Position numbers and translations under genes: made by a program | Shown here: positions 6,474-18,364 of the stretch, in pieces | Position numbering within the stretch: the stretch's first letter is position 1 | Layout of the letters: every line of letters begins with the position of its first letter | Notes under the pieces: model-generated | What the model was told of the DNA's origin: nothing | Seen by the model: the letters and a program-made list of their open reading frames with translations, nothing else | The model's database searches: none | IMG/VR virus record: IMGVR_UViG_3300007236_000089 | Span: 1-20,357 of that record | Source of the DNA: a virus | DNA: 20,357 bases | Strand: one strand, 5' to 3'

Positions 6474-7874
6474 ATGGCATCAAGCACAAATCCACCTTCA
6501 GTTGAACAAGTGTCTAATCTGGTATTATCAGATACTTTCTACACTTGGTTCAACGTGTCTAACGACATTGTAAACAAGATCAACCCGATCGAGGTGTACA
6601 GCATTTCTGCTGATGCCAGAGACTACACCACTGTTGGTGCTGACGGCATCACCATTGATGATCTTGGTCAGGGCAACTACAGAATCGGTTACGTCATGCC
6701 CAGCAACATCACTGGTGGACACACGTTCCATCAGGATATCAATTTTGCTGCTGGTGCATCTGGTCCTATCGTAAACGCACTAAACGGTGTCACTGGAGAG
6801 ACGACAGCAGTAACCACCATTTCGGGCAGATCTATTACATCCACCGTCGCTGGTGTCGCTAACGTTGAAGCCGTTGTGCTTGATATTAACGGCATTTCTG
6901 CCTCCACCGCTGGTAGTCTAACCCTCGATCTAAGCGGAATCGCCTCTACTGGGGGTCTGGGTACCGTTCTAACTGCCACTGGCGGTACTGGAACCTTCTC
7001 ACACCAAACCCAGCTATTCTTTGGTAAACCAGAACCAGACCAGCTAGGAATCAGGATCAAGGGTGCCACCCATAGTGCTGCTGTGGTCATGGGTGGACCA
7101 CTGGGTACCACCACAGATGCAGACTACAGACTCAGTGTTCTTGCTGGCAACTCTGGTGCTTTTGGTGCAATCTCCGTTGTGGGAGACGAAGGTCTAGCCC
7201 CTACCGTCATGCTAAGAAACAGCGGGTCCATCAACGGCGAAGACAAGTTAACTTTGATGTCTGGTGATGCTGGTAGTCCTGGCACCATCGAACTTAGGAC
7301 TGGCTCTGGATTCACTGCTGGGCAGAAGAATCTTGCGATTGGCATCTCTCAGGATGGTGTTCAAATTGTAGGCAAGCTATATGACTCTAGTGGGGTCCCT
7401 GGTTCTGCTGGTCAGGTGTTGACCTCTACTGGATCGGGCACCAGTTGGTCCGCTTCGACACAAGTCGGTTATGGGGTCGGAGCCGTGGCAGTCAGGGCGG
7501 GGTCCTCCACCACCAATTTCTTCCGCACAACAGTTGACGGTACCAGCGGCTTGACTTTCAGCATGCCTTCGGCTGGTTCTTCCGCCGAGTTTTTTTATAG
7601 CACCGCTGATAGTTCCAATGGACCGATCATGGTGACACTTAGTGTTGACGGCGGCCCCAGCGAGAAGTACGGATTCACCGTTCAATATAAAGCATTGTCA
7701 GGAACTTATATCACCATTGGAGGTCTACAAAAGACTGGTGGAGCTGGCGGACTTGGATACGACCAGTCTTTATCGTGGCCTATGGTGCCTGGTACTAGCT
7801 TCATTGTCAACACCGACCTCGACGAGGGCGGCCTCAATGGTAGATCCAATCTGACAGTATTCACTTCTTCCTGA
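6474..7874 (+). CDS. Fibre-like virion structural protein
   Basis: A 466-residue Gly/Ser/Thr-rich protein with low charge and no signal peptide. The N-terminus (residues ~10-45, NLVLSDTFYTWFNVSNDIVNKI) looks like the short helical attachment segment that begins many marine myovirus fibres. The middle is repetitive beta-type sequence. Residues ~302-326 (LYDSSGVPGSAGQVLTSTG, then SGTSW) contain a 'YDSSG...GxAGQVLTSTGxGxxW' element that recurs in phage fibre proteins. The C-terminal ~130 residues look like a separate beta-rich domain. It lies immediately before gene 13, the position of T4 genes 12 and wac, which encode the short tail fibre and fibritin, but I see no clear sequence match to either. 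A fibre or collar-whisker role is inference from composition and place. Confidence 0.6.
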   Translation: MASSTNPPSVEQVSNLVLSDTFYTWFNVSNDIVNKINPIEVYSISADARDYTTVGADGITIDDLGQGNYRIGYVMPSNITGGHTFHQDINFAAGASGPIVNALNGVTGETTAVTTISGRSITSTVAGVANVEAVVLDINGISASTAGSLTLDLSGIASTGGLGTVLTATGGTGTFSHQTQLFFGKPEPDQLGIRIKGATHSAAVVMGGPLGTTTDADYRLSVLAGNSGAFGAISVVGDEGLAPTVMLRNSGSINGEDKLTLMSGDAGSPGTIELRTGSGFTAGQKNLAIGISQDGVQIVGKLYDSSGVPGSAGQVLTSTGSGTSWSASTQVGYGVGAVAVRAGSSTTNFFRTTVDGTSGLTFSMPSAGSSAEFFYSTADSSNGPIMVTLSVDGGPSEKYGFTVQYKALSGTYITIGGLQKTGGAGGLGYDQSLSWPMVPGTSFIVNTDLDEGGLNGRSNLTVFTSS

Positions 7875-8639: not shown

Positions 8640-9500
8640 ATGGCAATCAACCCGTACTTCAAGAATCAGAGGCAAGAGCAAGATGTTCTTGAAGATCTGG
8701 CCATTGAGACTATCAAGATCCATGGTCAGAACATGATCTATATGCCCAGAACGTTGACCAACGAGGATGCACTCTTCGGGGAAGATACCCAGAGTTTATT
8801 CAACAACGGTTACGAACTGGAAATGTACATCTCCTCTGTTGACGGGTTCGAGGGAGAGGGAGATATCATCTCCAAGTTTGGTCTTCAAATCAACGACACC
8901 GCCACATTCGTTCTCTCCAGAAAGCGATTTAGGCAGGCGGTCGGTGATTTTCAAGATGGCATCGACAAACCAAGAGAAGGCGATATGATCTATTTCCCTC
9001 TAACTAGAGGACTGTTCCAGATCACCTTCGTAGAGGACGAAAATCCGTTCCACCAGTTGGGCAGATTGTATACCTACGACCTTACGGTGGAACTGATCAA
9101 ATACACCAAGGAGCAGTTCCTCACTGGTTGGCCTGACATTGACAACTTGGGTGCTGCTAGAGACAACCCAATGATCCAGTTCTCCATCTCTGGTCATACT
9201 GGGGAGTTCGTTGTCGGAGAGATTATCACCGATGCTGCTGGTACCACTGCAGAGGTTATTACTTGGAACACATCTGCTAACCTCATGGAAGCAGCAGGTA
9301 GAACCGCAGCGGCAGGAATGTCTGGCGGGATCACTGGTTCCAACAGTGGAGCATTCGGTACCATCGGCTCTACTGCTGGACTAGGAATCACCACAGAATC
9401 CATTAGCGATCCATTTGGTAGTAATTCGGAAATCCAGTTAGAAGGTAATGGATTTATCAACTTCAGCGACAAAGACCCGTTCTCGGAGGGTAACTTCTAA
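8640..9500 (+). CDS. 14: Neck/head completion protein gp14 with C-terminal extension
   Basis: A 286-residue protein whose first ~175 residues follow the T4 gp14 pattern (MAINPYFKNQRQEQDVLEDL, then IKIHGQNMIYMPR and EMYISSVDGFEGEGD). With gp13 it seals the packaged head and forms the connector to the tail. From residue ~180 the sequence changes character: a GEFVVGEIITDAAGTTAEV unit (~188-206), an Ala/Gly/Ser-rich stretch (~215-255), then an acidic end (FINFSDKDPFSEGNF). The GE-V-G...AG-T-AEV unit resembles units in the gp8-like and DUF4815 proteins here. The protein is somewhat longer than T4 gp14 (256 residues). Its stop TAA (9498-9500) shares its last A with the ATG of gene 15, implying translational coupling. 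Confidence 0.88.
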   Translation: MAINPYFKNQRQEQDVLEDLAIETIKIHGQNMIYMPRTLTNEDALFGEDTQSLFNNGYELEMYISSVDGFEGEGDIISKFGLQINDTATFVLSRKRFRQAVGDFQDGIDKPREGDMIYFPLTRGLFQITFVEDENPFHQLGRLYTYDLTVELIKYTKEQFLTGWPDIDNLGAARDNPMIQFSISGHTGEFVVGEIITDAAGTTAEVITWNTSANLMEAAGRTAAAGMSGGITGSNSGAFGTIGSTAGLGITTESISDPFGSNSEIQLEGNGFINFSDKDPFSEGNF

Positions 9501-10557
9501 TGTTTGAACGGTTCTATAATCAGGCTCTCAGAAAGATTACAGTGGGCTTCGGCACTCTGTTTAATAACGTGTATATGACACGCATGAATCTGGACGGGAC
9601 CAAGGACTCCGAAATGAGAGTCCCTTTGGCATACGGACCCAAGACTAAATGGATTCGTATGCTTAATGAGAGAACGTCTGGTACACAGATGGAACTGCCC
9701 AGAATGTCGTTCGATATTGTGGGCATTGAATACGACCCCACCCGCAAGAAGAATTCTTTACAGAAGAGGATGGCAGTTGGACCGAACAACGAGACAGTGT
9801 ATTCGAACTTCATGGAAGTTCCATACAATATCGAGTTCGAATTGTCCATCATGGTCCAATATGTAGAAGACGGGTTGAGTATTCTAGAGCAGATTTTACC
9901 ATATTTCTCTCCACAATTTAATATCTCCATTAACTTTAATGAAACGAATCAAAACGTAGATATCCCTATCGTCTTGAACAGCACTTCTGTATTATCAGAC
10001 TATGAAGGGCAAGTGGAGGGAATGAGAATCCTAACCATGGATCTTTCCTTTACTGCTAAGGCATCCCTGTTTGGTCCTCAGACCAGCAGTGGAACGATCC
10101 AGAGAGCACAAATCAACTTCTTCGAACCAGAGACGTTTACATTCGACGACTATGGTGTGGTGATAGGATGTTCTGGTGCTACGGGTGCTCTATCAGAAGT
10201 GCACGTTGGGGTTACTGGTCCCTCTGGTGCTTCCTCTGGTGTGGACACCTTCACTGATTACACCGTGGGAATTACGGTCTATGGTGCTACCAGTGCCCCG
10301 CCAGTTCAAGGAATCCAATTCGGTGAATTGAGCTTAGGAGAAGTCTACGGAGGTATCACCAACTTCGTAGGGGTAGAAATTTCAGGCGTTACTTATGAAG
10401 GCGTTTCATGGGAATGGGAAGGGGTTACCAGTGCTGGAATCCAATTCGGTGAATTGAGCTTAGGAGAAGTCTACGGAGGTATCACCAACTTCGTAGGGGT
10501 AGAAATTTCAGGCGTTACTTATGAAGGCGTTTCATGGGAATGGGAAGGGGTTACAGC

Positions 10558-10561
<4 letters not shown>
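9500..10561 (+). CDS. 15: Tail completion and sheath stabiliser protein gp15 with duplicated C-terminal extension
   Basis: A 353-residue protein. Residues 1-~205 align in pattern with T4 gp15: MFERFYNQALRK start, FNNVYMTRMN, MRVPLAYGPK, LPRMSFDIVGIEY, YELSI-like FELSIMVQYVEDG and EQILPYFSPQFN. T4 gp15 forms a hexameric ring capping the tail tube and sheath and docking to the gp13/gp14 neck. From ~210 the protein carries a Gly/Ser/Thr/Val-rich extension absent in T4, ending in two adjacent 41-42-residue copies of one unit (271-312 and 313-353). The copies are identical apart from the junction residues, giving a protein ~80 residues longer than T4 gp15 (272). The unit is rich in Gly, Val, Glu and aromatic residues (e.g. 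YEGVSWEWEGVT) and looks beta-type. Start is fixed by overlap with the gene 14 stop; the stop overlaps the gene 16 start (ATGA). Confidence 0.9.
10310..10554 (+). repeat. Perfect 126-bp-period tandem duplication in the 3' end of gene 15
   Basis: Bases 10310-10428 recur exactly as 10436-10554: 119 identical bases with a period of 126, i.e. 42 codons. The bases after the identical stretch diverge, because copy 1 runs into copy 2 and copy 2 runs into the gene 15 stop and gene 16 start. The copies are in frame and keep the gene open. The absence of even synonymous differences indicates a very recent event, a conversion-maintained repeat, or an assembly artefact. Confidence 0.97.
10542..10550 (+). 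promoter_or_regulatory. Ribosome site of gene 16, lying inside the second repeat copy
   Basis: GGGAAGGGG (10542-10550) sits 7 bases before the ATG at 10558. It is why that ATG is preferred over in-frame ATGs at 10534 and 10540, which lie within the duplicated gp15 coding unit. The identical sequence in copy 1 (10416-10424) is not followed by a nearby ATG. Confidence 0.6.
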
Positions 10562-12656
<2,095 letters not shown>

Positions 12657-17330: not shown

Positions 17331-17900
17331 ATGAACCTTCAAGACAGATTCTATGGCTCACAGATTAGAGGTGTGGGCAAAAAGTTTATCACCGCTGTAT
17401 CTGACGAGAACCTCCTCGAGGCTAAGGAGGCTGTGGAAACTGGTCTTTTTGGTAAGGCAGGAGAAGTTCTCTCAGAAGAAGCATCCCTTCAGACCATCGC
17501 AAACCGCATCATTTCTGGTGACGTGGCAGGCAGACTAGAAGAGTCTTCCAAGAAGTCCACCAAGAAAGAGGGTTGGAGCGAAGACGAAGAAGAGGAAGAG
17601 TACGAAGTCCTCAATCTCGAATCCGAGGAAGAGGAAGAGGTAGAGGAAGACTCTGACGAGGAAGACTCCAAGGAAGAAGTCAAAGAAAACTTCGACCCAA
17701 AGTCGATGATGCAAATGTTCCAGATGATGATGGCGATGGCTATGATGGGTAATCAAGGTCAGCAGGGTTTTGGCGGTCTAAAACCAGAACACGCTCGAGC
17801 ACTAGGCAAAGTGGGTGGAATGAACCCAGGTAGCTTTGCTGGTCCCGCAGGTCGTCCTGGTGGCGGCAACGGCATGGGCATGGGAGGCGGACGACGATGA
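17331..17900 (+). CDS. 67: Prohead core protein, gp67-like
   Basis: A 189-residue protein at the gene 67 position. Layout: MNLQDRFYGSQIRG start; a helical segment (~22-65, VSDENLLEAKEAVETGLFGKAGEVLSEE) resembling the short helical start of T4 gp67; a very acidic stretch (~83-119, runs of Glu/Asp as in T4 gp67); a Met-rich segment (~125-140, MMQMFQMMMAMAMM); and a Gly/Arg/Pro-rich tail ending GMGMGGGRR. T4 gp67 is only 80 residues, so the Met- and Gly-rich C-terminal half is an addition. In T4, gp67 is an internal core protein needed for correct head shape and is degraded by gp21; L-x-E sites suited to that protease are present (NLLEAKE, VLSEEA). Its stop overlaps the next start (ATGA). Symbol given by position and architecture. 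Confidence 0.65.
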   Translation: MNLQDRFYGSQIRGVGKKFITAVSDENLLEAKEAVETGLFGKAGEVLSEEASLQTIANRIISGDVAGRLEESSKKSTKKEGWSEDEEEEEYEVLNLESEEEEEVEEDSDEEDSKEEVKENFDPKSMMQMFQMMMAMAMMGNQGQQGFGGLKPEHARALGKVGGMNPGSFAGPAGRPGGGNGMGMGGGRR

Positions 17901-18364
17901 ACCTACAGCAAAGATTTTATGCACAACGTATCCAGAACCTCCAAGAGGCCAAGGATTCCCCAGAGCAGAAGGCATACAAGGAATTGTTTGCTAAGATGCT
18001 CGACAAGTACGATGCCGACTCTCCCAACGACATCCCCAAGGAGAAGAGAGACGATTTCTTCAACGAAGTCGAGGCAGCATGGAAGAAAGATCCTGCCAAC
18101 GACTCTGAGGGTGAAGGCGAAGAAGAGGAAGAAATGGAAGAAGGTCTGAAAGAGGCCACCGATGGCGGCGGTCCAGGCGGCGGAGGCAAAGGCGGTCATG
18201 GCACCCCTCCCCCAAGTGTAGTTGATGCCGCTGGTCAGGGTCCTCTCACCATGAACGGCATGCTTGCCGCTTTCGGTTCTCGTGACCTTAGATACGACTT
18301 CAATGGAGACGGAGTTGTCGACGGTGAGGATCTAGGAATTTTCCTCGCTAAGTTCGGCGGCTGA
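17897..18364 (+). CDS. Prohead core-type protein at the gene 68 position, with a C-terminal dockerin/EF-hand-like loop
   Basis: A 155-residue protein directly before gp21, where T4 has gene 68. It starts MNLQQRFYAQRIQNL, nearly the same as the preceding gene. A helical region follows (~22-65), then an acidic run (~69-83), a Gly-rich linker (~89-102) and a C-terminal segment (116-155). That segment contains YDFNGDGVVDGEDLGIF (133-149), in which D134, N136, D138, D142 and D145 fit positions 1, 3, 5, 9 and 12 of a dockerin-type calcium loop. L-x-E sites (NLQEAK, GLKEAT) could be cut by gp21. I see no convincing sequence match to T4 gp68 itself, so the symbol is withheld. The ribosome site GGGAGGCGG (17882-17890) lies inside the end of the gp67-like gene; ATGA overlap implies coupled translation. 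Core role is inferred from place and composition. Confidence 0.62.
   Translation: MNLQQRFYAQRIQNLQEAKDSPEQKAYKELFAKMLDKYDADSPNDIPKEKRDDFFNEVEAAWKKDPANDSEGEGEEEEEMEEGLKEATDGGGPGGGGKGGHGTPPPSVVDAAGQGPLTMNGMLAAFGSRDLRYDFNGDGVVDGEDLGIFLAKFGG

Follow-up and report, generated by a model that had tools for sequence, protein, structure and literature searches.

The window analysed here, that is, the whole 20,357-bp IMG/VR record, belongs to a T4-like phage whose only source is environmental DNA. From PHROG and Pfam matches, its genes encode, in order, a baseplate wedge-like protein, a 1,674-aa DUF4815 protein, an unmatched 466-aa protein, gp13, gp14, gp15, gp16, gp17, gp18 (sheath), gp19 (tube) and gp20 (portal), followed by small proteins, the gp21 protease and the gp22 scaffold. 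The 466-aa protein, directly 5' of gp13 (6474-7874), has no Pfam or PHROG match, and a small protein between the portal and protease genes (17897-18364) carries a C-terminal dockerin or EF-hand-like motif (DFNGDGVVDGEDLGIFLAKF). Gene 15 (Table 1) encodes a bona fide gp15 tail terminator, as the first-pass annotation had proposed: the product matches PF16724 over residues 5-211 (E=2.2e-63, 214 bits against a curated cut-off of 25) and phrog_227 (E=1.4e-66), the best Foldseek match of its predicted core fold is T4 gp15 in the portal-neck-tail structure 9MKB (9mkb_AB, E=3e-16), followed by 4huh/4hud, and the gene sits between the neck genes 13/14 and the terminase genes 16/17 (phrog_211, 460, 227, 445 and 2, in order).

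Two identical 119-bp copies lie in frame at the 3' end of this gene. Tandem Repeats Finder and a direct-repeat search agree on an array at 10310-10554 with a period of 126 bp (42 codons) and 100% matches, the sole tandem array found in the window, and with 119 exact bases a chance origin is negligible. The exact 119-base identity, the 126-base period and the reading frame are thus as first described, while the description of a perfect 126-bp duplication adding a second unit of 42 residues needs correction: identity spans 119 bp, since CAGTGCT, which separates the copies, is present only once, leaving 245 periodic bases where a clean tandem duplication of 126-bp period would give 252, and unit 1 comprises 42 residues (271-312) but unit 2 only 41 (313-353, ending in VTA-stop). 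The separating stretch is seven bases long. The absence of any difference had also been taken to mean a very recent event, a repeat kept uniform by recombination, or an assembly error; the identity is real, but it only bounds the divergence of the copies at less than about 2.5% (95%), and a 12-bp indel and one synonymous change adjoin the identical stretch if the 138-bp model presented below is right.

Table 1. Features of gene 15, its repeat and the start of gene 16 (window positions)
Feature	Position	Strand	Basis
Gene 15, tail terminator / tail sheath stabiliser, 353 aa	9500..10561	+	PF16724, phrog_227, predicted fold
gp15 core and C-terminal segment common to nearest relatives, residues 1-266	9500..10297	+	relatives' profile alignment
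TACCAGTGC, proposed left end of the 138 bp originally duplicated	10288..10296	+	9-mer and 14-nt pair
12 bp, CCG CCA GTT CAA (PPVQ), before copy 1, absent before copy 2	10298..10309	+	flank comparison
Copy 1 of the exact 119-bp repeat; unit residues 271-312 run on through the junction	10310..10428	+	repeat searches
Duplicate GGGAAGGGG, ribosome-site-like, within copy 1; no gene-16 start after it	10416..10424	+	sequence
TACCAGTGC at the copy 1/copy 2 junction	10426..10434	+	9-mer and 14-nt pair
Junction CAGTGCT between copies; first five bases also in contig L001/L088	10429..10435	+	sequence, contig comparison
Copy 2 of the exact repeat; residues 313-353 with following bases	10436..10554	+	repeat searches
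GGGAAGGGG, likely gene 16 ribosome site, 7 nt before ATG	10542..10550	+	sequence; relatives' sites
Gene 16, small terminase subunit; start overlaps gp15 stop (ATGA, 10558-10561)	10558..11025	+	phrog_445, E=2.5e-41

Both units belong to an extension of 87 residues (267-353), which begins where the closest relatives end, and whose codon usage resembles that of the gp15 core. Eighty related contigs were found with gp17 (the best relative being 74% identical) and further ones with a gp15 alignment; the gp15 homologue set contains 102 non-redundant complete sequences. In the closest contigs (L004-L017), gp15 is 272-282 aa long and 50-64% identical over the core, and most of these proteins carry GVTGPSGASSG(I/V)DNFT and end about 15-25 residues later. 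A profile of 11 relatives aligns with residues 1-265 of the window gp15 (profile positions 1-269 of 278), and has no match to the 87-residue extension. Across the whole set, gp15 is at most 293 aa long in 61/102 homologues and at least 330 aa in the other 41. Added C-terminal sequence is therefore common in marine T4-like gp15, so that an extension as such is not unusual, and the C-terminal end of the protein tolerates add-ons. The repeat unit and its duplication are in contrast unique among the sampled homologues: the search for repeat copies in related gp15 C-termini suggested by the first-pass annotation returned no tandem repeat in any of the 102 (best ungapped self-match score of at most 38, vs 215 here) and no relative with the unit.

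The marine T4-like gp15 lengths are bimodal (L084, L085, L099-L168), with a long form of 330-353 aa that carries, past the PF16724 match and before a DDFGF terminus, a segment of about 65-70 residues (like ITVDDASSI..YIDIDGEEMYVKSKSGNKLTVERGQDGT). Segments of another type (GSFTTGEKITGASSGTTAYV) are inserted within the gp15 core of L024 and L025, and the window gp14 (8640-9500) holds a similar segment, GEFVVGEIITDAAGTTAEVITWN.

The flanks of the array offer some indication of how it arose. The window contains the 9-mer TACCAGTGC just twice, at 10288 and at 10426, and the repeat search returned a 14-nt pair, GGTGCTACCAGTGC and GGGGTTACCAGTGC, with a spacing of 138 (126 + 12); the codons before copy 1 read ACC AGT GCC CCG CCA GTT CAA, and those before copy 2 ACC AGT GCT. 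On the simplest reading, which we infer from these flanks, one event would fit them better, namely a 138-bp (46-codon) tandem duplication at a TAC microhomology followed by two changes. Template switching or illegitimate recombination at the 3-bp TAC would have duplicated the segment running from TACCAGTGC (10288) to the GGGGT before TACAGCATGA. A later deletion of 12 bp (PPVQ) from the second copy, which also acquired one synonymous change (GCC to GCT), would have brought the period to its present 126 bp. Counting against this model, the flank similarity amounts to 9-14 bases, a wider local DNA alignment is not significant (p 0.24), and two extra changes are needed. With a period of 42 codons and the gene-16 ribosome site at the end of every copy, subsequent gain or loss of copies by homologous recombination would disturb neither the gp15 frame nor the start of gene 16; the array would thus be free to persist or collapse, and the duplication would be tolerable without assuming any benefit. 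Taken together, we consider it rather probable that the locus carries a genuine and recent in-frame tandem duplication within a lineage-specific C-terminal extension of gp15, whose second copy is probably near-neutral.

Since the window is a single metagenomic contig and exact repeats are typical of assembly errors, the phage might have one copy only. To this we give very little weight. The end of copy 2 lacks the CAGTGCT of the junction, which must therefore come from reads. A second IMG/VR contig, 3300025769_009193 (L001/L088), which may share its sample with the window contig, is 99.95% identical over 3,934 aligned bp (two mismatches, at 9071 and 9724), crosses all of copy 1, continues with CAGTG, and ends at window position 10433, before copy 2. 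As a one-copy genome would read AGCATGA after copy 1, this other assembly also saw the junction. These five unique bases make unlikely the assembly error that the first-pass annotation had left as an option, and the duplication is most likely genuine, as judged from the two contigs. On the other hand, the second contig breaks at the repeat, so that the exact copy number may be two or more, or mixed. Does the locus then vary in copy number, with 1, 2, 3 or more units exchanged by homologous recombination and altering the neck or tail-top surface? The array shows one trait of a variable-number repeat locus, at least two near-identical in-frame copies (119/119 identical, period 126), the long exact repeat has a period that preserves the frame and the gene-16 start, and the independent assembly breaks no more than five bases past copy 1, as is common at repeats or with mixed copy number. 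Against this, IMG/VR yielded no contig with another copy number and no third contig with the unit peptides or DNA, the sole near-identical contig stops after copy 1, its end position misfits, by reasoning, a simple k-mer prediction for three copies, and there is no sign of a receptor-binding role. We therefore regard such variation as doubtful, and the rapid alteration of the neck surface suggested at first finds no support, neither another copy number nor a relative with the unit having been found. No copy number was concluded from the end position of the contig, given its misfit to the k-mer model.

The array also touches the start of gene 16. The duplication had been said to carry the gene 16 ribosome site, and the likely site, GGGAAGGGG, is indeed found in copy 2, relatives carrying GGAAGGGAA or GGAAGGAAA near the same place; there is no separate leader in which the repeat could end, as had been stated, since gene 15 ends and gene 16 begins in the same ATGA. 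Upstream of it, copy 2 has ATG codons in the frame of gene 16 at 10534 and 10540, so that the true start of gene 16 is uncertain. Selection could have acted on the doubled ribosome site, or on an altered mRNA before gene 16, tuning the level of the small terminase: GGGAAGGGG is present in each copy, and that of copy 1 is followed after 6 nt by a GTG opening an out-of-frame frame of 8 codons (10431-10457). This is scarcely credible, as the copy 1 site is without a gene-16 start and lies 126 bases upstream, the RNA folding of the repeat is ordinary (z about -0.6), and no promoter- or terminator-like site was found in the repeat.

A different question concerns the origin of the first unit. No donor was found in the window or in 18 relative records searched whole, nor in phages (protein and distant DNA), Pfam, PHROGs, PDB sequences, IMG/VR or GTDB genomes; the unit has no profile match above the cut-off in Pfam or PHROGs, and phage tblastn matches have E values of at least 3. 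By sequence comparison, the 87-residue extension is thus an orphan in the collections searched. PDB sequence matches to a knotted solenoid (E 0.15-0.22) are weak and were treated as chance. The unit could itself stem from an ancient, since diverged duplication of the conserved C-terminal segment of gp15 (GVTGPSGASSG...), the C-terminus having grown by repeated rounds of duplication, which would be compatible with the favoured recent duplication as it bears on the origin of the first unit. A weak similarity points that way (ALSEVHVGVTGPSGASSGV vs SLGEVYGGITNFVGVEISGV, GATSA vs GVTSA), but the p values of shuffle tests range from 0.04 to 0.4 with the choice of gap cost and partner, and the relatives' profile has no match in the extension. 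A homology between the unit and this segment was rejected as not significant, and such an ancestry seems unlikely.

As to the position of the extension in the virion, T4 gp15 is a ring-shaped hexamer and binds both gp3 and the last ring of the sheath (PMC3004832). In phage XM1, the C-terminus of the terminator enters the sheath, where it contributes a strand to the beta-sheet of the last ring, and the T4 crystal structure has no region equivalent to it (PMC10457771). Since this XM1 C-terminus joins the sheath, sequence beyond it should lie outside the sheath-neck junction; by this analogy, the extension would hang outside that junction, in six copies per virion, where extra length would be tolerated. 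AlphaFold2 gave no confident structure for residues 220-353 (pLDDT of the extension about 35 with an alignment and 37 alone), and at these values the repeating short strands of the model were set aside. The extension itself may have a role at the surface, and we think that the second copy is close to neutral. It is improbable that the gp15 C-terminus is a contingency locus preserving the frame and the gene start, in which recombination between exact 126-bp units would vary how many orphan units the neck of the virion displays.

As it stands, this is a modest evolutionary observation, an instance of a core tail-assembly protein lengthened by duplication of its DNA. The copies have not yet diverged, and they lie at a site where many marine T4-like phages have unrelated sequence added. 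Were the copy number found to vary in nature, this would suggest that a conserved assembly ring could double as a variable display platform.

Several known systems resemble the locus in part. T4 gp15 (PDB 4HUD, 4HUH and 9MKB; PF16724) shares the gene order 13-14-15-16-17-18-19-20, the core (residues 1-211) and the predicted fold, but is 272 aa long and has no repeated C-terminal unit, as the first-pass annotation had rightly pointed out. Closer still, the gp15 proteins of L005-L007 (core 64% identical, 272 aa) have the same core, GVTGPSGASSG segment and overlap of the gp15 stop with the gene-16 start, and end where the extension starts. The long gp15 of Kyanoviridae and other marine T4-like phages (343 aa in P-SSM4, 337 aa in S-SCSM1) also bears extra C-terminal sequence after the same core, but this is a different single segment of their own, of about 65-70 residues before DDFGF, and free of tandem repeats. 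At the DNA level, tandem expansion has been described for a proposed virion filament gene of phiCbK (PMC3556154); this gene 76 (proposed head filament) likewise encodes a virion protein and is proposed to have grown by DNA-level tandem duplication, although the protein is unrelated to gp15 and located elsewhere in the virion. Finally, the gp16-dependent amplifications around the gene-16 pac site of T4 are tandem duplications in the same genome neighbourhood, but are large and were selected in the laboratory (PMC3012670); the window repeat, lying beside gene 16, recalls them by analogy, as a lead only and at another scale.
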